Positions 141 to 13,711 of a DNA stretch of 47,176 nt are shown here, piece after piece. Position numbers and translations under genes: made by a program. Within the stretch, counting starts at the first letter, position 1. Each line of letters starts with the position of its first letter. Source of the stretch: Rhodospirillaceae bacterium. Its GTDB lineage: Bacteria; Pseudomonadota; Alphaproteobacteria; SMXQ01. The notes below the pieces were generated by a model. The model was not told the origin of the DNA. It saw only the letters and a program-made list of their open reading frames with translations, and made no database searches. Where the stretch lies: NCBI GenBank assembly GCA_947474495.1, contig CANJIM010000016.1:1-47176 (forward strand), written 5' to 3'.

Positions 141-3020
141 ATGACTGCAGACGCCGCTCATACACTCATCGATGAGGACCTCCACGACGAGGTGACGATT
201 CCCGCGCCGCCCTCGGCGAAGGCACCGCGCGCCCGCACGGCGTCGAACGCGGCGGTGGCGCGCCTGTCGACCCGGCTCGAAGAGCTGGCCCTCACCGCCA
301 AGCCCAATCAGCTGCGCCCCCAGGCGCTCGCCCTGCTGCGCGAGACGTTGGATGCCGGCCGCGCCGAAGCGCGCCGCGCCTTTTACGAGACCAATGCCAG
401 CGGCGCCGACACGGTCGCCGCCAACGCCCGCCTGATGGACGGCATCATCGCCGCCATTCTCGCCTTCGCCAGCCGCGTCGTTTATCCCAATGCCAATCCG
501 ACCAAGGGCGAAAAGCTCGCGGTCTGCGCCGTCGGCGGCTATGGCCGCGCCGAACTGGCGCCGCAGTCGGACATCGATCTGCTGTTCCTGGTGCCCTACA
601 AGAAGACGCCGCACGCCGAACAGGTCATCGAATATGCGCTCTATCTCTTGTGGGACCTCGGCCTGAAAGTCGGCCAGGCGATCCGCTCGGTCGACGAGTG
701 CATCCGCCAGGCCAAGTCCGACATCACCATCCGCACCGCGACGCTCGAGACGCGCCACCTGTGGGGCGATGCCGCCCTGTCGGAAGAGCTGCGCAAGCGC
801 TTTCGCAAGGAAGTCGTCACCGGCAGCGAGGCGGATTTCGTCGAGGCCAAGCTCGCCGAGCGCGATGCGCGCCATCAGCGCGTCGGCGATTCGCGCTACG
901 TGCTCGAGCCCAACGTCAAGGAAGGCAAGGGCGGCCTGCGCGATCTGCACACGCTGTTCTGGCTGATCAAATATATCTACGGCATCGACGACGTGGCACG
1001 CATCGTCAAGCAGGGCATCTTGTCGGCGCGCGAGGCGCAGCGCTTCCAGCGCGCGCAGAACTTCCTATGGACGGTGCGCTGCCATCTGCATTACCTGAGC
1101 GGCCGCCCGGAAGAGCGCCTGACCTTCGACATGCAGGCCGAAGTCGGCCGCCTGATGGGCTATCGCGACCATGCCGGCGCGCGCGGCGTCGAGCGCTTCA
1201 TGAAGCATTACTTCCTCGTCGCCAAGGAAGTCGGCGACCTGACGCGCATCGTCTGCGCCAACCTGGAAGATAATCACAAGCGCCGGCCGCGCTCTCTGCT
1301 GCCTTTCTGGGGCAGCCAGTTGTGGGGCGGCAAGGGCGAGAGCGCGCAGATGCTCGAGGGCTTCAAGGTGCTCGGCGGCCGCATCGACGTGACCGACGAC
1401 GAGGCCTTCACCAAAGACCCCGTGCGCCTCATCGGACTGTTCCACACGGCGCAGCGCCATAAGCTCGACATCCATCCGCATGCGCTGCAGCTGATCACGC
1501 GCAGCCTGCTGCTGATCGACGATGATTTGCGCAACGATGCGGACGCCAACCGGCTGTTCATGGAAATTCTGGCGGCGCCCGACAATTCGGAATTCATGCT
1601 GCGGCGCATGAATGAATCGGGCGTCTTCGGCCGCTTTGTGCCGGACTTCGGCCGTGTCGTCGCGCAGATGCAGCACGACATGTATCACGTCTACACGGTC
1701 GACGAGCACACGCTGTTTGCCATCGGCATGCTCCATCGCATCGAGATGGGCGAGCTGAAGGACGAGCTGCCGCTCGCCACTGAAATCTTCCATCGTGTCG
1801 CCTCGCGCCGCGCGCTCTATCTCGCCGTGCTGCTGCATGACATCGCCAAAGGCCGCGGCGGCGATCACTCCGAGCTTGGCGCCGAGGTGGCGCTCAAGCT
1901 CGGCCCGCGCCTCGGTCTTTCCGAAGAAGAAACCGAAACCGTCGCCTGGCTGGTGCGTCACCACCTCGCCATGAGCAAGGTCGCCTTCAAGCGCGACATC
2001 AGCGATCCGTCCGCCATCCGTAGTTTCGTCGATGTCGTGCAGTCGCCCGAGCGATTGGGCCTTTTGCTGTTGCTCACCGTCGTCGATATCCGCGCCGTCG
2101 GCCCCAACGTGTGGAACGGTTGGAAAGCGGCGCTGCTGCGCGACCTGTTCTATGCCGCGCGCGAAATGATGTCGGGTGGCTTGATGGCCGAAGGCCGCGC
2201 CGCGCGAGTCGCCGCCGCCAAGGATGCCTTGCGCGCCGCCTTGCCGGATTGGTCCGAAGAAGAGTTCGCCGAGCATGTGGCGCGCGGCTATCTCTCTTAC
2301 TGGCTCGGCTTCGACACCAAGGGGCATACCCATCATGCGCGGCTGATCCGCGACGCCGAGGCCGAGGAGACGCCGCTCGCCATCGACGTCGTTGCCGATT
2401 CCTACCGCGCCGTTACCGAAGTCACTCTCTACACCGCCGACCATCCCGGCCTGTTCGCGCGCATCGCCGGCGCCATGGCGATGAGCGGCGCCAACATCGT
2501 CGACGCCCGCGTCTATACGCTTGCCAACGGCATGGCACTCGACTCGTTCTGGATTCAGGACGTCGAGGGCGGCGCCTTCGAGAAGACCGAGCGCGTCCGC
2601 AAGTTGCGTAGCAACATCGAGGGCGTGCTCGCCGGCAAGATCCGGCCCGGCCGCGAATTGGCCGGCAAGCGCACGGGGCCGGCCCGCGCCCGCGCCTTCC
2701 AGGTGCTGACCCGCGTGCTGATCGACAACGAGGCGTCGGCGACCCACACGGTGATCGAGCTGAACGGCCGCGACCGCCCCGGCTTCCTGTTCGACGTCAC
2801 CACGGCGCTGACCGACATGGCGCTGCAAATCACCAGCGCCAAGATTTCGACCTATGGCGCCCGCGCGGTCGACGTTTTCTATGTCAAAGACCTGTTCGGC
2901 CTCAAAATCACCCACGAAACCAAGCTCGCCCAATTGCGCGAACGCCTGTTCGCCGCAGTGCAGGACCCCGACGAGGCAGCTGCCCCGGCGAAATCCGGCC
3001 CCATAGCCCTAACGCATTGA
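141..3020 (+). CDS. glnD: [Protein-PII] uridylyltransferase / uridylyl-removing enzyme GlnD
   Basis: GlnD is the glutamine sensor of the nitrogen cascade. It adds UMP to PII proteins when nitrogen is scarce and removes it when glutamine is high. The 959 residues show the complete family layout. A nucleotidyltransferase domain carries GGYGRAEL followed by SDIDLLFL at about residues 132-150. A GlnD-specific helical region follows. An HD phosphohydrolase domain has the HD pair near 566-567. Two C-terminal ACT domains start near 757 and 868, each with the xxDxPGLF/GFLF glutamine-binding turn. The ATG at 141 gives an Ala/Pro-rich N-terminal extension of about 30 residues, which is common in alphaproteobacteria. 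No defects are visible in either active domain, so both activities are expected. A CtrA-type box lies upstream. Confidence 0.97.
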   Translation: MTADAAHTLIDEDLHDEVTIPAPPSAKAPRARTASNAAVARLSTRLEELALTAKPNQLRPQALALLRETLDAGRAEARRAFYETNASGADTVAANARLMDGIIAAILAFASRVVYPNANPTKGEKLAVCAVGGYGRAELAPQSDIDLLFLVPYKKTPHAEQVIEYALYLLWDLGLKVGQAIRSVDECIRQAKSDITIRTATLETRHLWGDAALSEELRKRFRKEVVTGSEADFVEAKLAERDARHQRVGDSRYVLEPNVKEGKGGLRDLHTLFWLIKYIYGIDDVARIVKQGILSAREAQRFQRAQNFLWTVRCHLHYLSGRPEERLTFDMQAEVGRLMGYRDHAGARGVERFMKHYFLVAKEVGDLTRIVCANLEDNHKRRPRSLLPFWGSQLWGGKGESAQMLEGFKVLGGRIDVTDDEAFTKDPVRLIGLFHTAQRHKLDIHPHALQLITRSLLLIDDDLRNDADANRLFMEILAAPDNSEFMLRRMNESGVFGRFVPDFGRVVAQMQHDMYHVYTVDEHTLFAIGMLHRIEMGELKDELPLATEIFHRVASRRALYLAVLLHDIAKGRGGDHSELGAEVALKLGPRLGLSEEETETVAWLVRHHLAMSKVAFKRDISDPSAIRSFVDVVQSPERLGLLLLLTVVDIRAVGPNVWNGWKAALLRDLFYAAREMMSGGLMAEGRAARVAAAKDALRAALPDWSEEEFAEHVARGYLSYWLGFDTKGHTHHARLIRDAEAEETPLAIDVVADSYRAVTEVTLYTADHPGLFARIAGAMAMSGANIVDARVYTLANGMALDSFWIQDVEGGAFEKTERVRKLRSNIEGVLAGKIRPGRELAGKRTGPARARAFQVLTRVLIDNEASATHTVIELNGRDRPGFLFDVTTALTDMALQITSAKISTYGARAVDVFYVKDLFGLKITHETKLAQLRERLFAAVQDPDEAAAPAKSGPIALTH

Positions 3021-3094: not shown

Positions 3095-4399
3095 ATGATG
3101 GCCCTCGAGCTCACGCTCGTCGTTCTGCTGATCATCCTCAATGGTTTCCTGGCCATGTCCGAATTGGCCGTGGTGTCTTCCCGGCCGGCGCGCCTGCGCG
3201 CCCTCGAATCGGCCGGCGTGCGCGGCGCGGCGACGGCGCTGCGCTTGGCGGAAAACCCAAGCAAGTTCCTCTCCACCGTGCAGATCGGCATCACGCTGGT
3301 TGGTGTGTTGGCGGGCGCCTTCTCCGGCGCGACCCTCGCCGAACGCCTCGGCGGCTATCTCGTCCTGCAAGGCATGCCGGATACCTGGGCCAACGCCGTC
3401 AGCCTGGTGGCGGTCGTCACCGTCGTCACCTATCTCTCGCTCATCGTCGGCGAATTGGTGCCCAAGCAGATCGCGCTCGGTGATCCCGAACGCGTCGCCG
3501 CCTTCGTCGCCCGCCCCATGCTGTGGATCGGCCGCATCTTCGCGCCAGCGGTGATCCTGCTCGACCTCTCCTCGAAGCTTTGCCTCAAGCTGATCGGCCG
3601 CGAAGGCCAGTCGAAGGAGTCGGTGACGGAAGACGAGATCCGGATGCTCGTCGCCGAAGCGGAAAGCGCCGGCGTGCTCGAGCCGGCCGAGAAGCAGATG
3701 ATCAGCGGCGTGCTGCGCTTCGGCGACCGCCCGGTCAGCGCCCTGATGACGCCGCGCCACGAAGTCGACTGGGTCGATCTCGAAGACAAGCAGTCGGAGA
3801 TTCGTCAGAAGCTCACGGCCAGCCGCCATTCGCGCCTGCCGGTCGGCAAGGGCAGTGTCGACGAGGTCGTCGGCATCGTCCAGGCGAAGGACTTGCTCAA
3901 CGCCTATCTCTCGGGCGAGGCGGTCGACATTCGCGGCCATGTGAAGGATGCGCCGATCATCCATGAAAGCGCCGACGCGCTCGAAATGCTCGAAGTGCTC
4001 AAGCGCGCCACCGTGCACATGGCCTTGGTGGTCGACGAATACGGCATGTTCCAGGGCGTCGTGACCAGCGGCGATATTCTAGAGGCCATCGCCGGCGCCT
4101 TCCGCGAGCAGGGCGAGGAGAGCGAAGACGCGGTGCGGCGCGACGACGGCTCCTGGCTGCTGTCGGGCTCGATGCCGCGCGACGAACTGTCCGATCTTCT
4201 CTTGCTGCCGATTCCGGGCGAGGTGACGTTCCACACCCTGGCCGGCTTCATGCTGCACAATCTCAAGCGCATGCCGAAGGTCGGCGATTCGGTCGTCGTC
4301 GGCGGCTGGCGCCTCGAAGTCGTCGATATGGACGGCCGCCGCATCGATCGCGTGCTCGCCCAGCGCCTGGCCGGCGACAGCGAAGAAGGCACCTGGTGA
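3095..4399 (+). CDS. Hemolysin family / CNNM-CBS domain membrane protein
   Basis: This 434-residue protein has the architecture DUF21/CNNM (about residues 1-190, with hydrophobic helices starting at residue 3), a CBS pair (about 205-325, first repeat beginning VSALMTPRHEVDWV) and a C-terminal CorC/HlyC domain (about 345-425). Such proteins are inner-membrane Mg/Co transport or efflux proteins in which the CBS pair senses adenine nucleotides. The hemolysin label is historical. It starts 75 bases after glnD at one of two consecutive ATGs (3095 or 3098); neither has a clear ribosome binding site. A second member, lacking the membrane domain, occurs at 27692. The substrate cannot be read from the sequence. 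Confidence 0.9.
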   Translation: MMALELTLVVLLIILNGFLAMSELAVVSSRPARLRALESAGVRGAATALRLAENPSKFLSTVQIGITLVGVLAGAFSGATLAERLGGYLVLQGMPDTWANAVSLVAVVTVVTYLSLIVGELVPKQIALGDPERVAAFVARPMLWIGRIFAPAVILLDLSSKLCLKLIGREGQSKESVTEDEIRMLVAEAESAGVLEPAEKQMISGVLRFGDRPVSALMTPRHEVDWVDLEDKQSEIRQKLTASRHSRLPVGKGSVDEVVGIVQAKDLLNAYLSGEAVDIRGHVKDAPIIHESADALEMLEVLKRATVHMALVVDEYGMFQGVVTSGDILEAIAGAFREQGEESEDAVRRDDGSWLLSGSMPRDELSDLLLLPIPGEVTFHTLAGFMLHNLKRMPKVGDSVVVGGWRLEVVDMDGRRIDRVLAQRLAGDSEEGTW

Positions 4400-4428: not shown

Positions 4429-6033
4429 ATGGCATTGATGCGGGCCATCACCACGGTCGGCGGTTTCACGCTGATCAGCCGCGTGCTCGGCTTCGTCCGC
4501 GACATGCTGCTCGCCGCGCTGCTCGGCGCCGGCCCGGCGGCGGACGCCTTCGTCGTTGCCTTCAAGCTGCCCAATCTGTTTCGCCGCCTGTTCGCCGAAG
4601 GGGCGTTCAGCGCCGCCTTCGTGCCGATGTTCGCGCGCAAACTGGCCGGCGAAGGCAAGGACGTGGCGCGGCTGTTCGCCGAGCAGGCGCAGGCGGCCTT
4701 GCTGCTGGCGCTGCTTGTCTTCGTCGTCATCGCCGAATTCGCCATGCCCTGGGCGCTGGTCATCATCGCGCCCGGCTTCGGCGACGATCCGGCGAAATAC
4801 GCCCTTGCCGTCGAGCTGACGCGCATCACCTTTCCCTATCTGCTGTTCGTCTCGCTCGTCAGCCTGGTCGGCGGCGTGCTCAACGGTTTGGAGCGTTTCG
4901 CCGCCACCTCGGCGACGCCGGTGTTTTTGAACATCGTGATGATCGCCGGCCTTGCCGGCTGGCAATGGTATGCGCCCTCCGCCGCGCATGGCGCCGCCTG
5001 GGGCGTGACCGCGGCGGGCTTGGCGCAAATGATCTGGCTCTATCTCGTCATGCGCGCGGCGGGTTTCGGCTTGAAGCTGCGTTGGCCGCGCCTGACGCCG
5101 GATGTGAAGCGGTTGCTGATCTTGATGACGCCGGTGGCGCTCGGCGCCGGCATCTATCAAATCAATGTGGTGGTCGATATCGCCATCGCCTCGTTCCTGC
5201 CGTCGGGCGCCGTCTCCTATCTTTATTACGCCGACCGCTTGGTGCAGCTGCCGCTCGGCGTCGTCGGCATCGCCATCGGCACGGCGCTCTTGCCGATCCT
5301 GGCGCGGCAGATCCGCAACGGCGAGGCCCAAGCGGCCATGCACAATCAGAACCGCGCGCTGGAAGTGGCGCTGCTGCTGACCTTGCCGGCCGCCGTGGCG
5401 CTCACCGTGCTCGCTTATCCCATCGTGCTGGTGCTGTTCGAGCGCGGCGCCTTCGGCGGCGCCGAGGTCGCGGCGACGGCGGCGGCACTCGCGGCTTACG
5501 CCGTCGGCCTGCCGGCGCAGGTGCTGGTCAAGGTCTTCACGCCGGGCTATTTCGCGCGCGAGGATACTGCCTCGCCGGTGCGCATCGCCGTCGGCTGCAT
5601 GTTCGGCAATGTCGCCATCGGTATCGCCCTGATGTTCGCGCTGCGCGGCTATGGCCTCGGCCATCTCGGCATCGCGCTCGCCACCAGCATCACCGGCTGG
5701 ATCAATGCGCTGCTGCTGTCGCGCGGCTTGGCCAAACGCGGCCATTTCCATCTCGACGCGCGGGCCAAGAAACGCTTGTGGCCGATGGCCTTCGCCAGTT
5801 TCGCCATGGCCGGCGTTCTCCTGCTGCTCGCCTGGGCTCTCGCGGGTTGGCTCGCGGGATCGGAACATTTGCGCATCGCCGCGCTCGCTATCTTGGTGGC
5901 GGCCGGCATGGCGGTCTACGGCATCGCCGCGCAACTGTTCGGCGCGATGGATCTGCGTGAGTTGAAAACCCTGCTGCGCCGCCCGGGGCGCACGCCGCCG
6001 GTCGAACCAGCGGGCGGCGCGGATCTGACCTAG
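4429..6033 (+). CDS. murJ: Lipid II flippase MurJ
   Basis: MurJ moves the undecaprenyl-linked peptidoglycan precursor lipid II across the inner membrane. The 534-residue product is hydrophobic throughout, compatible with 14 transmembrane helices. It opens with the family signature region TVGGFTLISRVLGFVRDML and has the typical LPNLFRRLFAEGAFSAAFVP segment near residues 45-65. The ATG at 4429 has GAGAGG at 4413-4418 as ribosome binding site and lies 29 bases after the previous gene. In many Rhizobiales the next gene is trpS; here about 6.6 kb of accessory DNA lies between them. Confidence 0.96.
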   Translation: MALMRAITTVGGFTLISRVLGFVRDMLLAALLGAGPAADAFVVAFKLPNLFRRLFAEGAFSAAFVPMFARKLAGEGKDVARLFAEQAQAALLLALLVFVVIAEFAMPWALVIIAPGFGDDPAKYALAVELTRITFPYLLFVSLVSLVGGVLNGLERFAATSATPVFLNIVMIAGLAGWQWYAPSAAHGAAWGVTAAGLAQMIWLYLVMRAAGFGLKLRWPRLTPDVKRLLILMTPVALGAGIYQINVVVDIAIASFLPSGAVSYLYYADRLVQLPLGVVGIAIGTALLPILARQIRNGEAQAAMHNQNRALEVALLLTLPAAVALTVLAYPIVLVLFERGAFGGAEVAATAAALAAYAVGLPAQVLVKVFTPGYFAREDTASPVRIAVGCMFGNVAIGIALMFALRGYGLGHLGIALATSITGWINALLLSRGLAKRGHFHLDARAKKRLWPMAFASFAMAGVLLLLAWALAGWLAGSEHLRIAALAILVAAGMAVYGIAAQLFGAMDLRELKTLLRRPGRTPPVEPAGGADLT

Positions 6034-6483
6034 CGATCGGCCCGGACTCATTCGCCGATAAACGTGCGTATGGCGAACATCGCTGAGCGTGAAGCGCTCT
6101 TTGCGGGCCGTTCGGGCAATCACACCCGCCACATCTTCTATCTTTTATATGAATGGTAAACCGCGCGCTCGCCAAGGCTGCGGTAATTCCAGTTTCATTG
6201 CCGGTTTCATTGATAGACAGAGTCGATTCGCGATTTAAGATGATGGAAAAAAATCATCCTGGGGAGGAATGCCATGCAGACTCGGAAAAAGCGTCAGCGA
6301 TAACGCGCCGCGAGTCTGGAAGCCGACAAAACGCGCCGTGACGGAATCGCTGATCTCCGTCGTTCGCGCAAGGCCAGCTTCCCCTTCAGCTCCTCGATGA
6401 AGCCTCTGTTTTTTAAACCCGAAAATTTCTCTGCCGAAGGAATCGCCGGCCTTCGATGTTCCTCTGACACTTGAGAGTTGGTC
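6034..6483. other. 450-base intergenic region at the left edge of the Rieske/ABC block
   Basis: No full gene is visible. A weak terminator-like hairpin (GAGCG, loop of 5, CGCTC, then TTT) lies at 6085-6102, inside a wider CGGCCCG/CGGGCCG inverted repeat (6038-6044 and 6104-6110), and could end murJ transcription. A 9-bp direct repeat GTTTCATTG occurs at 6192-6200 and 6204-6212. Two tiny reading frames follow: 6274-6303, with a strong ribosome binding site, and 6397-6474, without one. The Rieske operon promoter is probably here, but I cannot fix its position. Confidence 0.6.
6274..6303 (+). CDS. Candidate 9-codon leader peptide or gene remnant
   Basis: An ATG at 6274 opens a nine-codon frame encoding MQTRKKRQR and then stops with TAA. 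It is preceded by a strong Shine-Dalgarno run GGGGAGGA at 6261-6268 with good spacing. A ribosome binding site this good before a nine-codon, highly basic peptide suggests either a leader for the oxygenase operon or the surviving 5' end of a gene deleted when the block arose. It may equally be chance. Confidence 0.3.
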   Translation: MQTRKKRQR

Positions 6484-7596
6484 ATGACGCCAGAACAGAA
6501 TGAACTGATGACGCGCGTCGGCCCGGGTACTCCGGCCGGCGAGATGTTGCGCCGCTATTGGTGGCCCGTCGGCTTCTCGCAAGAGCTTAAGGATAAGCCG
6601 GTTCCAGTGCGCCTTCTGGGCCAGGACTTGATCCTATTTCGCGATGGCTCCGGTCAGGCCGGGTTGCTCGATTTGCAGTGCCCGCATCGCGGCGCTTCAC
6701 TGGCGCTCGGGCGCGTCGAGGCGGACGGTATCCGTTGCTGCTATCACGGCTGGAAATTCGACAGCGCCGGTCGCTGCCTCGATATGCCGGCCGAACCCGC
6801 CAATTCGCCGATGCGCGATGAAACGCGGATGAAGGCCTATTCGACGTTCGAGATTTCCGGATTCGTGTTCGCTTACATTGGCCCGCAGCCGGCGCCGGCC
6901 TTCCCGAAATACGACCTCTTGTTCCTGCCGAACATGGACCGCCATGTCGGGTCGTCCGATGAATATTGCAATTGGATGCAGCGCGCCGAGAATGGCGTCG
7001 ATCAAATGCATTCGACTGTGCTGCATGCCACGGTCTATCCCGAGATCGCTTTGCAGCGTCCGAATGTCGATTGGCAATCGACATGGTACGGCGTGCGCGC
7101 CGCGTTCGATGTTCCCGGTCGGCAGACCAAGGTGTCCCATCTGGTGTTTCCGTCGCACAGCCGCTACTTCGGCGCGCGCGTCAACGATCTACCGAGCCAC
7201 ATCATGCGTTTCCGAGTGCCGATTGACGACGTCTGCACCCGCACCTTCTATGTGCGCGCCCGCGACGCGGAAGGCCGCGCCGGCGAGATCAAGACGAACG
7301 GCTACACGCAGCGCGAGCCCGGCGTCTACGAGCGCGTGGAAGACGGCTGGTGGGGCTTGAGCTCTCGCGAACAGGATCGTGCGGCGCAGGAAAGCCAAGG
7401 CCCGATCGCCGACCGGACACGGGAAATCTTGGGGACGTCGGATCGCGGCGTCGTCTTGTTCCGCCAGATGCTCAACAAGGCGATCACCGCGGTGCAACGC
7501 GGGGAAGACCCGCCAGGTGTCCTGCGCGGCGATCAAGGTGATTTGCTGACCTTCGATGCGAAGAAACTCAGGGCCGGGACATTGATCACGGCGTGA
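6484..7596 (+). CDS. Rieske non-heme iron aromatic ring-hydroxylating oxygenase, alpha subunit (copy 1)
   Basis: This is a predicted cytoplasmic oxygenase that hydroxylates or O-demethylates an aromatic or related substrate, using electrons delivered to a Rieske [2Fe-2S] centre. The 370 residues carry the Rieske motif C66-x-H68-x16-C85-x2-H88. The mononuclear iron site has the D173-x2-H176-x4-H181 arrangement within AENGVDQMHSTVLH. The style resembles the phthalate 4,5-dioxygenase group, where a separate FMN/ferredoxin reductase donates electrons; none is encoded nearby. ATG 6484 is preferred over TTG 6478 because TGAGAG at 6472-6477 is a suitable ribosome binding site and the paralogue at 7675 starts identically (MTPE). 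The substrate is unknown. Confidence 0.88.
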   Translation: MTPEQNELMTRVGPGTPAGEMLRRYWWPVGFSQELKDKPVPVRLLGQDLILFRDGSGQAGLLDLQCPHRGASLALGRVEADGIRCCYHGWKFDSAGRCLDMPAEPANSPMRDETRMKAYSTFEISGFVFAYIGPQPAPAFPKYDLLFLPNMDRHVGSSDEYCNWMQRAENGVDQMHSTVLHATVYPEIALQRPNVDWQSTWYGVRAAFDVPGRQTKVSHLVFPSHSRYFGARVNDLPSHIMRFRVPIDDVCTRTFYVRARDAEGRAGEIKTNGYTQREPGVYERVEDGWWGLSSREQDRAAQESQGPIADRTREILGTSDRGVVLFRQMLNKAITAVQRGEDPPGVLRGDQGDLLTFDAKKLRAGTLITA

Positions 7597-7674
7597 CACG
7601 CCGCAACGCGCTAAAGCAGAGCGCCTGTCGCATTAACGAACCGGCGTCGCACAAAGCTCAATAGGGAGAGAGAC

Positions 7675-8808
7675 ATGACACCCGAAGACAATGAGATGTT
7701 CACGCGCGTGGGCGCAGGAACGCCCGCCGGCAAGATGCTGCGGATGTATTGGTGGCCGATCTGGTTCTCGCAATCAGTGACCGACAAGCCCGTTCCGATT
7801 CGCATTCTCGGCGAGAACCTCGTCCTGTTCCGCGACGCGACCGGCAAAACCGGGTTGCTAGATCGACGCTGCCCCCATCGCGGTGCGTCGCTTGAACTTG
7901 GCCGCGTCGAGGCCGACGGCATCCGCTGCTGCTATCACGGATGGAAATTTGACCGGGCGGGCGCTTGCCTCGACATGCCGGCTGAGCCGGCCGATACCCC
8001 GCTCAAGAACGAGGTGCGCCAGACCGCCTATCTCACGCAGGAAGCCGGCGGACTGGTCTTTGCCTATCTCGGGCCGCAGCCAGCGCCGCTGCTGCCGAAG
8101 TACGACCTATTGTTCCGCGAAGACTGCAATCGCGTCGTTTATTCCAAGGAGGAGCATTGCAACTGGCTGCAGCGCGCCGAGAACGGTTACGACCCGCATC
8201 ACCTCATGTCTTTGCACGCGCCGGGCTATCCGCAGATCGCCTTGAAGCCGGCCAAGATCAGCTGGGAAAAGGCCTGGTACGGCTGCCGGACATTGCAGGA
8301 ATACCCCAATTCGCTCGTCAACGTGACCCATCAGATATTCCCGTCGCACACACGCCGGCTGGCCGCGCGGACCGGCGACGAGCCGCGGCACTACTTGAAT
8401 TTGCGCGTGCCGACTGACGACGTGACGACGACGACATTTTTCGTCCGCGTCCAAATCGCGGAGAAGGGGCCCTATACCCTCGAAACCAAAGGCCATGAGA
8501 AAAGCGAAGCGATGATCTACGACCCGGTCGATGACGGTTGGTGGCGCATTCCCTCGCACGAACAGGACCGCATTGCGCAGGAAAGCCAGGGGCCGATCGC
8601 CGATCGCAGCCGAGAGTATCTCGGCACTTCCGACGAAGGCCTCATCATGCTGCGCAACCTCATCCGCAGTTCGATCAAGGCGGTCGCCGAGGGCCGCGAT
8701 CCGTTCGGCGTCATTCGCGATCCGGAGAAAAACACCATCGTCCGCTTCGATGCCGGAAAGAACTTCTCGGATGGCGTCAACAAGCCGCCCGAGATCATCA
8801 ACGCGTGA
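7675..8808 (+). CDS. Rieske non-heme iron aromatic ring-hydroxylating oxygenase, alpha subunit (copy 2)
   Basis: This 377-residue protein is a close paralogue of the preceding gene; the two align without large gaps from end to end and more than half of the residues appear identical by eye. The Rieske ligands C66, H68, C85 and H88 and the iron ligands D173, H176 and H181 fall at the same residue numbers. The substrate-pocket half (residues about 185-290) is the most divergent, which suggests a different substrate or hetero-oligomer formation rather than a fresh duplication. AGGGAGAG directly before ATG 7675 is a strong ribosome binding site. It lies 78 bases after copy 1 and is probably co-transcribed with it and with the binding-protein gene that follows. 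Confidence 0.88.
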   Translation: MTPEDNEMFTRVGAGTPAGKMLRMYWWPIWFSQSVTDKPVPIRILGENLVLFRDATGKTGLLDRRCPHRGASLELGRVEADGIRCCYHGWKFDRAGACLDMPAEPADTPLKNEVRQTAYLTQEAGGLVFAYLGPQPAPLLPKYDLLFREDCNRVVYSKEEHCNWLQRAENGYDPHHLMSLHAPGYPQIALKPAKISWEKAWYGCRTLQEYPNSLVNVTHQIFPSHTRRLAARTGDEPRHYLNLRVPTDDVTTTTFFVRVQIAEKGPYTLETKGHEKSEAMIYDPVDDGWWRIPSHEQDRIAQESQGPIADRSREYLGTSDEGLIMLRNLIRSSIKAVAEGRDPFGVIRDPEKNTIVRFDAGKNFSDGVNKPPEIINA

Positions 8809-8852
8809 AGACCGTATTGAGCGCGCCCGGTTTCTTCCAAGGACACAGCGAC

Positions 8853-10007
8853 ATGAATCAGAAAATAAAAATCCGCGGCCTGTTGACGGCTTTGCTCGTG
8901 ATCGCGTCCATCGGTGTCGCGTCTGGCGCGCTGGCGGATAGCCCGCCGGCGGCGAAGAAACTCATCGCCGACATGAAGCTCAACGCCGAAACGACGGCGG
9001 GCTGGGAAGAGGAACAGGTCGTTCCGCAGGCCTGGCTGGACGGCGCGAAGAAGGAAGGCGCGCTGCGCATCAACGGCAGTTGGGAGAGCAAGGAGTTTCG
9101 CGAGATGTCGAAAGCCTTCTCCGAACGCTATCCCTTCGTGAAGATCAACTATTCGCGCGGCAGCAACGATACGCGCGTCCGCACGCCCCTCGTCGCTTTC
9201 CGCGAAGGGCGCTACATCACGGATGTGGTAACTGGTATCGATAGTTCTCTGCCGGAGTTTCGCGAGATTCGCGCGCTCGCCGATCTCACGGACATGCCGA
9301 ACATCAAGAACGTCCCGGACGACATGCAGAGCAAGGGCGGCGACTGGGCCAGCGTGCGTCTGCGCTACTGGTGCATGGCCTACAATCCGAAGCTGATCAG
9401 CAAGGAGCGGATGCCCAAGACTTGGGACGATCTGCTGACGACCAAGGAGCTCTACAACGGCCGGCTCGCCTTGTGGCGGGGCGTGTCGTCCTGGCTGTTG
9501 CCCCTATGGAACGCCAAGGGGGAAGCCTGGACGAGCAATTACATGAAAAAACTCTTCGAGGTCGCTCAGCCGCAAAAGCGTAAGGAAGGCGCGCGGGCTT
9601 TGGTCAATCTCGTGATCATTGGTGAGTTCAACGCGACGCTCGCCGCGGCGGAATATCAGGTACAAGAACCGCTCGGTAAAGGCGCGCCCGTCGCCTTCCA
9701 TTGCCCCGATCTGGTCCCTGTCGCCGCCTCCACCGTCGGCATCCTGAAGGGCAATCCGAATATCAATTCCAGCAAGCTGTTTCTCAATTGGCTACTCAGC
9801 AAGGAAGGGCAGGTCGCGCAATATGCCGCCGGCGGCGCGCCTCCCGTTCATCGCGATCTCCAGAAGGCCGGCATGATGCCCTTCCCCGACGAAGTCGCCG
9901 GCAAGAAGATTGCCTTCCGCAGCCCTGATCTGCTGGATGACGACATCACCGCGATGTTCCGTATGTTGAAGCCGATTTGGGACGGCGATTTCGGTGACAG
10001 CGAATGA
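8853..10007 (+). CDS. ABC transporter periplasmic substrate-binding protein (Fe3+/polyamine-type family)
   Basis: A 384-residue extracellular solute-binding protein. ATG 8853 gives a standard signal peptide: basic MNQKIKIR, a hydrophobic core, then GALA before the probable cleavage site near residue 25. The reading frame is open upstream into the oxygenase gene, but the signal peptide fixes the start here. The mature part has the layout of the FbpA/PotD-like group (a lobe around KINYSRGSNDTRVRTPLVAF, then MAYNPKLI and KTWDDLL). That group binds metals, polyamines, phosphonates or small organic anions, so the ligand cannot be named. Linkage to two Rieske oxygenases suggests the oxygenase substrate, but this is inference. 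The stop overlaps the likely permease start. Confidence 0.85.
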   Translation: MNQKIKIRGLLTALLVIASIGVASGALADSPPAAKKLIADMKLNAETTAGWEEEQVVPQAWLDGAKKEGALRINGSWESKEFREMSKAFSERYPFVKINYSRGSNDTRVRTPLVAFREGRYITDVVTGIDSSLPEFREIRALADLTDMPNIKNVPDDMQSKGGDWASVRLRYWCMAYNPKLISKERMPKTWDDLLTTKELYNGRLALWRGVSSWLLPLWNAKGEAWTSNYMKKLFEVAQPQKRKEGARALVNLVIIGEFNATLAAAEYQVQEPLGKGAPVAFHCPDLVPVAASTVGILKGNPNINSSKLFLNWLLSKEGQVAQYAAGGAPPVHRDLQKAGMMPFPDEVAGKKIAFRSPDLLDDDITAMFRMLKPIWDGDFGDSE

Positions 10008-11826
10008 AGCTGCGAGGAGACAGAGGACGGCAGAGTCCTTTGCCGGCAATTTTCGTATGACCGCGGTGACGGCGCCCGAGGCGCGATCGACGTTCGCGTC
10101 GTTCAGACTCTTGCCGAGAAATCCTTGGCATTGGATTCTGTTCGTCTTGGTCGCCTTCGTGGTCGTGACCCCAGTGATCTTCCTGATTCTCGGCAGCTTC
10201 TCGACTGCGAAGCTGCCGACCGAGTTTGACATCACCAAGATGGGCCTCGAAAATTATCGGGCCGTCTGGGGCGATCCGGCCACCTACAAGGTCTTCTCCA
10301 ACACCTTCGTTTATGTCGCCGGGGCGACCGCGCTCGGGATCTCGATCGCGGCTCTCCTGGCCTGGCTGGCGGAGCGCACCAGCATTTCCGGCAAGGTCAT
10401 CATCTATGCCGGTGTGCCGCTCACCTTGGCGATGCCGGGCATGCTGCAGGCGATGGCCTATGTGTTGCTGCTCAGCCCGCGCATCGGCTTTCTGAACAAG
10501 GCCATCGAGCCGCTGGGTCTCGGCCCGATCAATATCTACACGCTCGGCGGAATGATCTTCATCGAGGGTCTTCGCCTCGTGCCGACGGCGTTTCTCATGC
10601 TGGTGCCGCTGCTGCGATCAATGGACCCGATGCTGGAAGAGGCGGCGGCGATGTCGGGCGCCAGCCCGAGCTCGACACTGCGCAAAGTGACCTTCCATCT
10701 TATGTTGCCGGGTTTGCTCGCCGTGGTGATCTACCAGGCGATGACGGCCTTGGAGGTGTTCGAGGTCCCGGGCATTCTCGGCCTGCCCGGCAATATCTAC
10801 GTCTTCAGCACCAAGATTTATTCCATCCTGCATTCCGTCTCGGTCATCCCGTCCTACGGACAGGCCAACTCCTTGGCGATGGTCTATCTCGTTCTCGCGA
10901 TCGTGACGACCTGGCTTTATGCCCGTGTCATCTCTCATTCCGAGCGCTACTCGATCATCACCGGCAAGGGCTATCGCCCGCGCATGCTCGAACTGGGCGC
11001 GGTGCAGCGCGTGGCCGCCTGGGCGCTCATTTCGGCGTTCCTGCTGTTCTCGGTGATCCTGCCGTTTCTCGTGCTGCTGTTCGTCTCCTTCTTGCCCTTC
11101 CTGCAGGCGCCGTCGGCGGCAGCCTTCCAATCCATGTCGTTCGAGCATTATCTCGATTTGTTCGACGAGCCATCGATTGCCCGCGTTGTCCGCAACACGA
11201 TCTACATGGTCGTCATCACCTCGACGCTGACGGTGCTGGCATCACTCGCCATATCGCTGGTGGTGGTCCGTTCGAAATTCTGGGGCCGACGCATCCTCGA
11301 CCAGATGGCCTTTATCCCGCACGCCATTCCCGGCATCGTCATGGGATTGGCCTTTCTCTGGCTATTCTTGCAAGGCGGCAAGATCGGCCTCGATATCCAT
11401 GGCGGCATCTTGGCGATTTCCTTGGCCTTCACTGCGGGCTTCGTCGCCTATGGCACGCGCGCCATGAACGCCGCCATCTTGCAGGTTCACAAGGATCTAG
11501 AAGAGGCCGCTTATGTGTCCGGCGCGCCGAAATGGCGCACGGTGTGGCGCATCTTCTATCCCTTGATGATGCCGACCTTCGCCGGCGTCTGGATCTGGTC
11601 CATGCTGCACGCGGTGCGGCAGGCCGGCATGCCGCTCATCCTCTATGAGGGCGAAGAGCATGAAGTCCTCGCCGTGCTGATCTGGAATATGTGGGACGAA
11701 GGCAAGGTCGAGCAGGTCGGTGCCGTCGGCACCTTGCTGATTCTCGTCCTGCTGCTGATCACCGTGATGATCCGGCTGGTCGGCTTCGGCCGCAGCGCCC
11801 ACATCCAGAACGCCAAAAGCAAATAG
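9994..11826 (+). CDS. ABC transporter permease, two fused permease domains
   Basis: A 610-residue inner-membrane protein containing two consecutive permease domains. Each carries an EAA loop: EEAAAMSGASPSSTLRKV in the first half and EEAAYVSGAPKWRTVWRI in the second. This is the fused FbpB/SfuB arrangement, which serves as both halves of the channel. The longest frame starts at GTG 9994, overlapping the binding-protein stop by 14 bases and so allowing translational coupling. ATG 10057 is an alternative but has no ribosome binding site. A nucleotide-binding subunit is required for transport, and none is encoded in this window. Confidence 0.87.
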   Translation: MTANEAARRQRTAESFAGNFRMTAVTAPEARSTFASFRLLPRNPWHWILFVLVAFVVVTPVIFLILGSFSTAKLPTEFDITKMGLENYRAVWGDPATYKVFSNTFVYVAGATALGISIAALLAWLAERTSISGKVIIYAGVPLTLAMPGMLQAMAYVLLLSPRIGFLNKAIEPLGLGPINIYTLGGMIFIEGLRLVPTAFLMLVPLLRSMDPMLEEAAAMSGASPSSTLRKVTFHLMLPGLLAVVIYQAMTALEVFEVPGILGLPGNIYVFSTKIYSILHSVSVIPSYGQANSLAMVYLVLAIVTTWLYARVISHSERYSIITGKGYRPRMLELGAVQRVAAWALISAFLLFSVILPFLVLLFVSFLPFLQAPSAAAFQSMSFEHYLDLFDEPSIARVVRNTIYMVVITSTLTVLASLAISLVVVRSKFWGRRILDQMAFIPHAIPGIVMGLAFLWLFLQGGKIGLDIHGGILAISLAFTAGFVAYGTRAMNAAILQVHKDLEEAAYVSGAPKWRTVWRIFYPLMMPTFAGVWIWSMLHAVRQAGMPLILYEGEEHEVLAVLIWNMWDEGKVEQVGAVGTLLILVLLLITVMIRLVGFGRSAHIQNAKSK

Positions 11827-11851
11827 CCATTCGCTATCGCGGACGGCTCTG

Positions 11852-11908
11852 AATCAGATCGACGTCGCTCTCGGGCAACGCCATTGCCGAAGCCTCGCCG
11901 ATCTGATT
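11852..11908. terminator. Long stem-loop after the ABC permease gene
   Basis: AATCAGATCG at 11852-11861 pairs perfectly with CGATCTGATT at 11899-11908. Inside the 37-base loop a second small hairpin GGCAA/TTGCC is possible. The right arm is followed by TTAAGG rather than a T-run, so it is a weak intrinsic terminator at best. It marks the end of the oxygenase/transporter operon, 11 bases before the next gene starts. Confidence 0.4.
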
Positions 11909-11919
11909 TAAGGCGTCCC

Positions 11920-12633
11920 ATGGCGGAAATTTTCAACAGCTTGGGCCAACCGATCGGCCCACCGGTCGACGGCTGGACGGCGCGGCCGCGTCCACCGGCG
12001 ACGCCGATGGTCGGGCGCCGCTGCCGTTTGGAGCGCCTCGATCCGGCGCGGCATGCGGCCGAGCTTTATGCCGCCCATCGGACCGCGCCGAACGACAGCA
12101 ACTGGACCTATCTCATGGTCGGGCCGTTCAAGACGCTGGCGGCCTATGAGGTCTTCCTGCAGGCCGAGGCGGCCAAGAGCGATCCCTTCCATCATGTCGT
12201 GATCGACGCCGCCAGCGACAAAGCGGTCGGCATGGCCAACTTCATGCGCATCGATCCGCCAAACGGCGTGATCGAGATCGGCCATATCGCCTATTCGCCG
12301 CTGCTGCAGCAGACGACCGCCGGCACTGAGGCGATCTATCTCTTGCTGCGCCGCGCCTTCGACGAACTGGGTTACCGCCGGGTCGAATGGAAATGCGACA
12401 GCCTCAATTCCTCCTCGCGCCGGGCGGCGGAACGCTACGGCTTTCGCCATGAGGGCATTTTCCGCCAAGCCACGGTCTATAAAGGCCGCAGCCGGGACAC
12501 CGCCTGGTTCGCGCTGCTCGATGCCGATTGGCCGGCGGCGCGAACCGCCTTCGAGCGCTGGCTATCGCCGGACAATTTCGACGCCGCCGGGCTGCAGCGC
12601 CGTACCCTCACGGATATCCGCGCCCATCCCTAA
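11920..12633 (+). CDS. GNAT family N-acetyltransferase (RimJ/RimL-like)
   Basis: A 237-residue acetyltransferase of the Acetyltransf_3 type. Hallmarks are GHIAYSPLLQQTTAGTEAIY (acetyl-CoA binding region, about residues 124-143), followed by RRVEWKCDSLNSSSRRAAER and YGFRHEGIFR, the usual C-terminal signature of RimJ/RimL-like enzymes. ATG 11920 is chosen over TTG 11884 because it is the normal codon and clears the upstream stem-loop. Targets of this family range from protein N-termini to small amines, so no substrate is assigned. It could belong to the oxygenase block or be an independent gene; the stem-loop between them favours the second view. Confidence 0.85.
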   Translation: MAEIFNSLGQPIGPPVDGWTARPRPPATPMVGRRCRLERLDPARHAAELYAAHRTAPNDSNWTYLMVGPFKTLAAYEVFLQAEAAKSDPFHHVVIDAASDKAVGMANFMRIDPPNGVIEIGHIAYSPLLQQTTAGTEAIYLLLRRAFDELGYRRVEWKCDSLNSSSRRAAERYGFRHEGIFRQATVYKGRSRDTAWFALLDADWPAARTAFERWLSPDNFDAAGLQRRTLTDIRAHP

Positions 12634-12712
12634 CCGGCCCCCCTGTCCTTGACCGGACAAGATGGCGGGGCGATAACAGCGGCCCCATCAGCTTTTCGCG
12701 CATTCGGGCCTC

Positions 12713-13711
12713 ATGAACCGCATTTTTTCGGGCGTCCAGCCCACCGGCAACCTGCATCTCGGCAATTACCTGGGCGCCATCCGCAACTGGGTGAAGCTGC
12801 AGAAAGACTATGACTGCATCTTCTGCATCGTGGACCTCCATGCTCTCACGTTGCCCCAAAATCCCGACGAGCTGCGCAAGCACACCCGCGAGGTGACCGC
12901 CGCTTATATCGCGGCTGGCATCGATCCGGAGGGCTGCACGATCTTCAATCAGTCGACCGTGCCGGGCCATTCCGAGCTCGCCTGGCTGCTCGGCACGCTG
13001 ACGCCGCTCGGCTGGCTCAACCGCATGACCCAGTTCAAGGAAAAGGCCGGCAAGCAGAAGGACAACGCCGGGCTCGGGCTTTATGCCTATCCGGTGCTGA
13101 TGGCCGCCGACATCCTGCTCTACAAGGCGACCCATGTGCCGGTCGGCGAGGACCAGAAGCAGCATTTGGAACTGGCGCGTGATATCGCCGGCGCCTTCAA
13201 CCGCCGCTTTGAGACCGAGTATTTCCCGCTGCCAGAGCCGCAGATTCTCGGCGAGGCGACGCGCGTCATGTCCTTGCGCGACGGTTCCAAGAAGATGAGC
13301 AAGTCCGACGAATCGGACTATTCGCGCCTCAACATGACCGACGATGCCGACACGATCGCCCTGAAGGTGCGTAAAGCGCGCACCGATCTGGAGCCGCTGC
13401 CCAGTGAAGTGGAAGGCCTTGCAGGCCGCGCAGAAGCCGACAATCTCATCACTATCTTCGCCACCCTGGCGGGGCGCAGCCGCGCCGACGTGCTCGGCGA
13501 ATTTGGCGGCAAGCTGTTCTCCGAGTTCAAGGGCGCCCTGGTCGACCTCGCCGTCGCCACCCTCGGACCGATCGGCGCCGAAATGCGCCGCCTGACCGCC
13601 GACACGGCCTATGTCGACGCCATCCTCAAGCGCGGCGCCGAGCGGGCCGGCGAGATCGGCGCGCGCCACATGAACGAGGTGAAGGACATCATGGGCCTGC
13701 TGCGGCCCTGA
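12713..13711 (+). CDS. trpS: Tryptophanyl-tRNA synthetase
   Basis: TrpS charges tRNA-Trp. It is a class I synthetase of 332 residues, normal length for the bacterial enzyme. The HIGH-type motif appears as HLGN at residues 15-18 and the KMSKS loop is exact at 194-198. [18 protein letters not shown] at the N-terminus is the standard family opening, so ATG 12713 is secure. This is where the core synteny interrupted after murJ resumes. Confidence 0.97.

Follow-up and report, generated by a model that had tools for sequence, protein, structure and literature searches.

The window, which is the whole 47,176-nucleotide stretch of contig CANJIM010000016.1 from a Rhodospirillaceae bacterium (genome G000), carries a four-gene block between murJ and a GNAT acetyltransferase gene, encoding two Rieske oxygenase alpha subunits (RieA and RieB), a periplasmic binding protein and a fused double permease, and lacking both an ATP-binding cassette (ABC) ATPase gene and an oxygenase reductase gene. 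We propose that the block is a catabolic cassette that was inserted after the species split from its sister and that would draw on a shared ATPase and on electrons supplied in trans, and we give this explanation as a whole a probability of about 60%. The probable role of the cassette is the uptake and oxidation of a single aromatic acid of plant or soil origin.

An accessory insertion between murJ and the GNAT gene

To locate the block relative to the resident genes, we compared the surroundings of murJ in 20 relatives, of which 19 are readable (nine of the same family); the contig of the remaining one, G006, ends just after murJ. In G001, the only available genome of the same genus (murJ locus L149), the GNAT gene starts 9 base pairs (bp) past the murJ stop and is followed by trpS, and trpS follows murJ directly in the remaining 18, of which eight belong to the family and ten to the class. 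The original prediction had put an accessory block in the murJ–trpS interval, to be doubted if most relatives held it at the same place; the block was found there in 0 of the 19, and it is an accessory insertion, as predicted. Aligned with G001, whose flanking proteins are 76–97% identical, the window loses its match at 6031 and regains it at ~11898, so that the insert extends from ~6032 to ~11897 rather than over the predicted 6034–12650. Because the GNAT gene (11920–12633, + strand, ATG 11920) adjoins murJ in G001 and is 84% identical between the two genomes, it is a resident genus-level gene that is older than the insertion; the predicted content holds for the two oxygenases, the binding protein and the double permease, and the GNAT gene drops out of it.

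The left edge of the insert, GATCTGACCT (6022–6031), is the end of murJ and comprises the final bases that are homologous to the uninterrupted G001 site. It is 8/10 identical to the right edge, GATCTGATTT (11900–11909), so that the two may form an imperfect 10 bp repeat, a possible target-site duplication, with a single copy in G001. We considered a mobile element and set it aside, as the insert (6032–11897) has room for only four genes, no transposase or integrase is among them, and the possible flanking repeat is the sole trace. An 18-nucleotide inverted repeat (83%; 11852–11869 and 11891–11908), which contains the junction sequence GATCTGATT, sits at the insert's right end and may be a terminator or a junction remnant.

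A permease clade that tracks one ATPase

The permease gene (9994–11826, + strand; start at GTG 9994 or ATG 10057) encodes two BPD_transp_1 stretches (Pfam) with two intact EAA loops. In the permease tree its product falls into a clade of 28 rows on a long stem with a support of 100, which we call clade A. This clade occurs in nine of the 11 family genomes with 29 near-full-length copies, and a search of 385 sampled Alphaproteobacteria at an E-value of 1e-130 gave no member outside the family. All 28 clade-A permeases keep their EAA loops intact, and docking of an ATPase is therefore expected for every one of them. We also asked whether the conservation of the EAA loops could reveal a common ATPase and dropped this test because it does not discriminate, the loops being better conserved than the rest in both clades (73 vs 65%; 46 vs 31%).

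The clade-A permeases of G000 stand apart from ATPase genes. Among the 31 double-permease matches of the genome, none of the eight clade-A members has an ABC ATPase within 3 kilobases (kb), compared with 14 of 19 other double permeases (Fisher p = 6e-4), and the comparison sharpens to 0/7 against 14/16 (p = 1.5e-4) when contig-end cases are left out. No ABC ATPase match on the window's contig was listed in the genome searches.

Instead, the clade is accompanied by one ATPase gene elsewhere. Each of the nine clade-A genomes holds exactly one ATPase at least 63% identical to the G001 gene, these copies form one clade with a support of 99, and G002 and G006 lack both clade A and the cognate ATPase. 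In six genomes (G004, G005, G007, G008, G009 and G010) one clade-A permease per genome adjoins this ATPase; five of the six permeases are in the tree, where they make up a single subclade with a sequence of G003, in which the cognate ATPase adjoins a permease fragment at a contig end. In G000 and G001 the cognate ATPase is standalone (G000:C56:8161-9282 and G001:C100:7885-9057, 94% identical), neither contig carries a clade-A permease, and the searches of both genomes gave no permease from the ATPase-linked subclade. The G000 copy is PhnT2/PotA-like with a TOBE_2 domain. A shared ATPase predicts what is seen in these two genomes, namely an ATPase retained without its usual partner beside several ATPase-less permeases. 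Our best reading is that the clade-A cassettes use a shared ATPase in the manner of MsiK, the ATPase that serves several disaccharide importers in Streptomyces.

The strongest competitor, which we nevertheless consider unlikely, is an ordinary catabolic insertion whose transporter works with any available related ATPase, none being dedicated to it, and whose missing adjacency reflects gene-order drift. G000 has 18 TOBE_2 ATPase matches that could play this part, and promiscuity among related ATPases is documented for AfuC with P5PAB (PMC8427247). However, a single clade-A-type ATPase tracks the permeases in 9/9 genomes and both are absent in 2/2, and the standalone gene has been kept at 94% identity in G000 and G001 though the usual permease subclade was not found there, both of which argue for the shared ATPase.

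Oxygenases and binding protein as probable partners of the permease

RieA (6484–7596, + strand) has 370 residues when read from ATG 6484, its open reading frame (ORF) opening upstream at TTG 6478, and RieB (7675–8808, + strand) is a 377-residue paralogue with 56% identity. Both contain the Rieske domain (PF00355; 73 and 69 bits) and a LigXa_C domain above its Pfam cut-off. In an alignment of 18 sequences the Rieske ligands of the CxH...CxxH pattern (C66, H68, C85 and H88) are invariant, as are D173, H176, H181 and D298, which we take from family knowledge to be the two histidine and one aspartate ligands of the iron and the bridging aspartate. Both proteins are intact oxygenases of the phthalate-dioxygenase type. 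The predicted model of RieA (predicted local distance difference test score, pLDDT, 87.9) matches the phthalate/isophthalate dioxygenases of Comamonas testosteroni KF1 (7FJL, 7V25 and 9INA) and a Rieske oxygenase of Cupriavidus metallidurans (7FHR) with Z 36–38 over 355–359 residues at ~31% identity, while the next group follows at Z 25. A search of the block proteins against NCBIfam gave no curated equivalog near its cut-off. Accordingly, we found no characterised enzyme that closely matches the oxygenases, in line with the original prediction, which had regarded clear orthology of both to a characterised pathway as evidence against it.

The binding protein (8853–10007, + strand, ATG 8853) carries a Sec-type signal peptide and belongs to the SBP_bac_1/8 superfamily (Pfam SBP_bac_1/8/6). 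The folds nearest to its model are MctA (citrate), FbpA, AfuA and P5PA, which bind carboxylates, phosphates and metal-anion complexes. Together, the phthalate-type oxygenases and the fold of a carboxylate or phosphate binder point to an aromatic carboxylate, which we infer as the likely substrate class.

The tree of oxygenases from the fetched loci places RieA and RieB in a nine-member clade with a support of 100, and all five members of this clade in G000 (two on contig C16 and one each on C50, C54 and C17) have a clade-A permease no more than 2 kb away. The uptake-plus-oxidation module of the original prediction is upheld as far as this pairing recurs, while its substrate is deduced here from the enzyme type and the fold.

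The prediction had also taken the five genes as one set, to be sought in the same order in related genomes, and a fixed five-gene system of this kind did not hold up. The adjacency of RieB and the binding protein is kept in loci L074 and L075, the latter with a divergent RieA, and neither locus has a clade-A permease. Since other genera have orthologues of the two oxygenases and of the binding protein at loci that lack the permease (L069, L074 and L075), the cassette looks like a mosaic of exchangeable parts. Orthologues of RieA (66–68%) were seen in L069 and L070; in L069 the gene is followed by a TctC-like binding protein and an amidohydrolase in place of the clade-A ABC system, so that the same oxygenase type is paired there with another uptake family. 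Gene calls at these paralogous loci are our own ORF calls on the fetched stretches, not curated annotation.

A still less probable explanation is that the permease and the binding protein are chance neighbours of the oxygenases and serve, for example, iron-chelate or phosphonate uptake. The best NCBIfam match of the permease is indeed PhnU2 (114 bits against a cut-off of 593), and the binding protein is weakly similar to binders of iron and 2-aminoethylphosphonate. Against this, oxygenases of the RieA/RieB clade and clade-A permeases are neighbours not only at the four G000 contigs named above but also at G001 C111 and G010 C370, and genes of the glyoxalase/extradiol type, Rieske genes and M24 genes accompany clade-A permeases at other loci.

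We also noticed genes in which an N-terminal glyoxalase/extradiol-type domain is fused to a C-terminal Rieske domain, at L170:9496-10272 (G000 C50) and L171:9087-9917 (G000 C34), with similar fusions in L190, L191 and L192. Their surroundings are catabolic clusters, with clade-A permeases and M24 peptidase-like genes close by.

As for the electron supply, G000 has 32 Rieske matches, ~25 of them strong, and three PF00175 proteins, none of which is in the block; two of these, on other contigs (C47 and C96), resemble oxygenase reductases and one is ferric-reductase-like. A search of G000 for Reductase_C, the ferredoxin-reductase type, gave no match. Because the block lacks a reductase and the genome has few, RieA and RieB would receive their electrons in trans. 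LigXa of Sphingobium SYK-6 offers a precedent, in that the locus tag of the ferredoxin gene is distant from that of the oxygenase gene (PMC12997858). Genome-wide, a disparity is seen between the 32 Rieske and 31 double-permease matches on one side and the two oxygenase-type PF00175 NAD reductases on the other.

Origin and surroundings of the insert

The comparison of codon usage with the flanks, for which the original prediction had asked, does not mark the block as foreign. The distance of the four genes is 4.17, compared with 4.08 +/- 0.84 for the flanks, and their GC content at third codon positions (GC3) is 0.79, compared with 0.82 +/- 0.04. Foreign codon usage was rejected on these values, and the resemblance to the flanks would suit an origin inside the family. 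The individual pieces have their closest relatives in other genera or in public metagenome-assembled genomes (MAGs) labelled Alphaproteobacteria or Rhodospirillales, at 73% for the permease (G005), 77% for RieB (L074), 68% for RieA (L069) and 57% for the binding protein (L075). An alternative history, in which the ancestor of the genus already had the block and G001 lost it by deletion, would agree with the unremarkable codon usage (4.17) but is highly improbable, because all other readable relatives of the family and class lack the block at murJ and a search of G001 gave no close copy anywhere (best permease 63%).

The insert opens with a leader of ~450 bp (6032–6483, + strand, ~53% GC), which has no gene or Rfam match and is a probable promoter region. 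An Rfam search of the whole block gave no RNA family or riboswitch at an E-value of 0.1, promoter and terminator scans gave signals near the shuffled expectation, and no homologue of the leader was found in the other fetched loci. The flanks in the window are glnD (141–3020) and murJ (4429–6033) on the left and trpS (12713–13711) on the right. A CNNM/CorC-type gene (3095–4399) lies between glnD and murJ in both the window and G001 and is not found there in other family members; it is a separate genus-level addition, and the glnD–murJ–trpS stretch has acquired genes more than once.

Discussion

From these data we propose the following course of events. The cassette would have entered the murJ–GNAT junction after the species split from its sister. 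In the periplasm, the binding protein would capture an anionic compound, probably an aromatic carboxylate, which the fused double permease would import at the expense of ATP hydrolysed by the ATPase encoded at G000:C56:8161-9282, the same ATPase presumably serving ~7 other clade-A permeases of the genome. RieA and RieB, singly or as a heteromer, would then oxidise the compound with O2 in the cytoplasm, with one of the few reductases scattered over the genome as the electron donor.

Several points weigh against this proposal. The co-occurrence of the ATPase and the clade-A permeases is not interaction. At a distance of 7 kb from the standalone ATPase there is a permease from outside clade A (C56:16374) that likewise lacks its own ATPase, and this permease may be a further client of the standalone gene product or its only client. 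G000 is a draft of 3.0 Mb in 127 contigs with 96% completeness. The 15 Fer2 matches in G000 leave room for a ferredoxin-type electron supply. The model of the binding protein is of moderate confidence (pLDDT 67.6). Finally, Arg207 binds phthalate in the Comamonas enzyme (PMC12445078), and the segment that holds it is an insertion relative to the RieA family and is missing here; RieA R232, which is nearly invariant, lies near Comamonas R244, the second arginine that contacts the phthalate carboxylates, yet out of register. Because the Arg207 segment is missing, phthalate itself is an unlikely substrate, judging from the aligned residues.

A broader reading, which we put forward tentatively and with slightly less than even odds, is that the whole family practises modular import, in which cassettes of binding protein, double permease and oxygenase would be gained, lost and recombined as units. 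Nearly all clade-A cassettes would then depend on one ATPase gene and a few reductases, and substrates could be added without an energy or electron component. If one ATPase does power many carboxylate and aromatic importers, the uptake range of the lineage could be exposed by just one knock-out or expression signal, and a catabolic cluster without an ATPase would no longer be taken to encode a broken transporter. Insertion of small cassettes, as at murJ, offers a simple account of how substrates are gained in bacteria whose food may be terrestrial or humic matter.

Expanded oxygenase sets in aquatic lineages are known, and so are shared ABC ATPases. We found no description of lineage-wide ATPase-less importers coupled to oxygenases in the literature searched. 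SAR202 and Arctic Rhodospirillales have expanded ring-hydroxylating dioxygenases or aromatic-degradation genes, and the passages concerned do not describe ATPase-less importer cassettes such as those seen here (PMC6946804, PMC9789639).

Among the oxygenases, the Comamonas and Cupriavidus enzymes share the alpha-only fold with RieA over the whole chain, and the Rieske and iron-site residues are intact here, whereas RieA is only ~31% identical, ~60–70 residues shorter, devoid of the Arg207 segment and without an adjacent reductase. LigXa, the oxygenase of the 5,5'-dehydrodivanillate (DDVA) O-demethylase of Sphingobium SYK-6, resembles the two proteins through the LigXa_C domain, while here a tandem oxygenase pair stands with a binding-protein transporter. 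As in the MsiK system, several sets of binding protein and permease lack their own ATPase and one ATPase gene lies elsewhere; in contrast to it, the permeases here are double-domain PhnU2/FbpB-like proteins of an alphaproteobacterial family, and the sharing is deduced from genomes. A parallel for the transporter is P5PAB of Actinobacillus, an operon of binding protein and permease that has no ATPase of its own, has a binding protein of the same superfamily and, as shown in E. coli, works with AfuC, borrowing the ATPase of a paralogous system (PMC8427247). In that case one pair is borrowed, whereas in G000 up to eight permeases would share a standalone ATPase.

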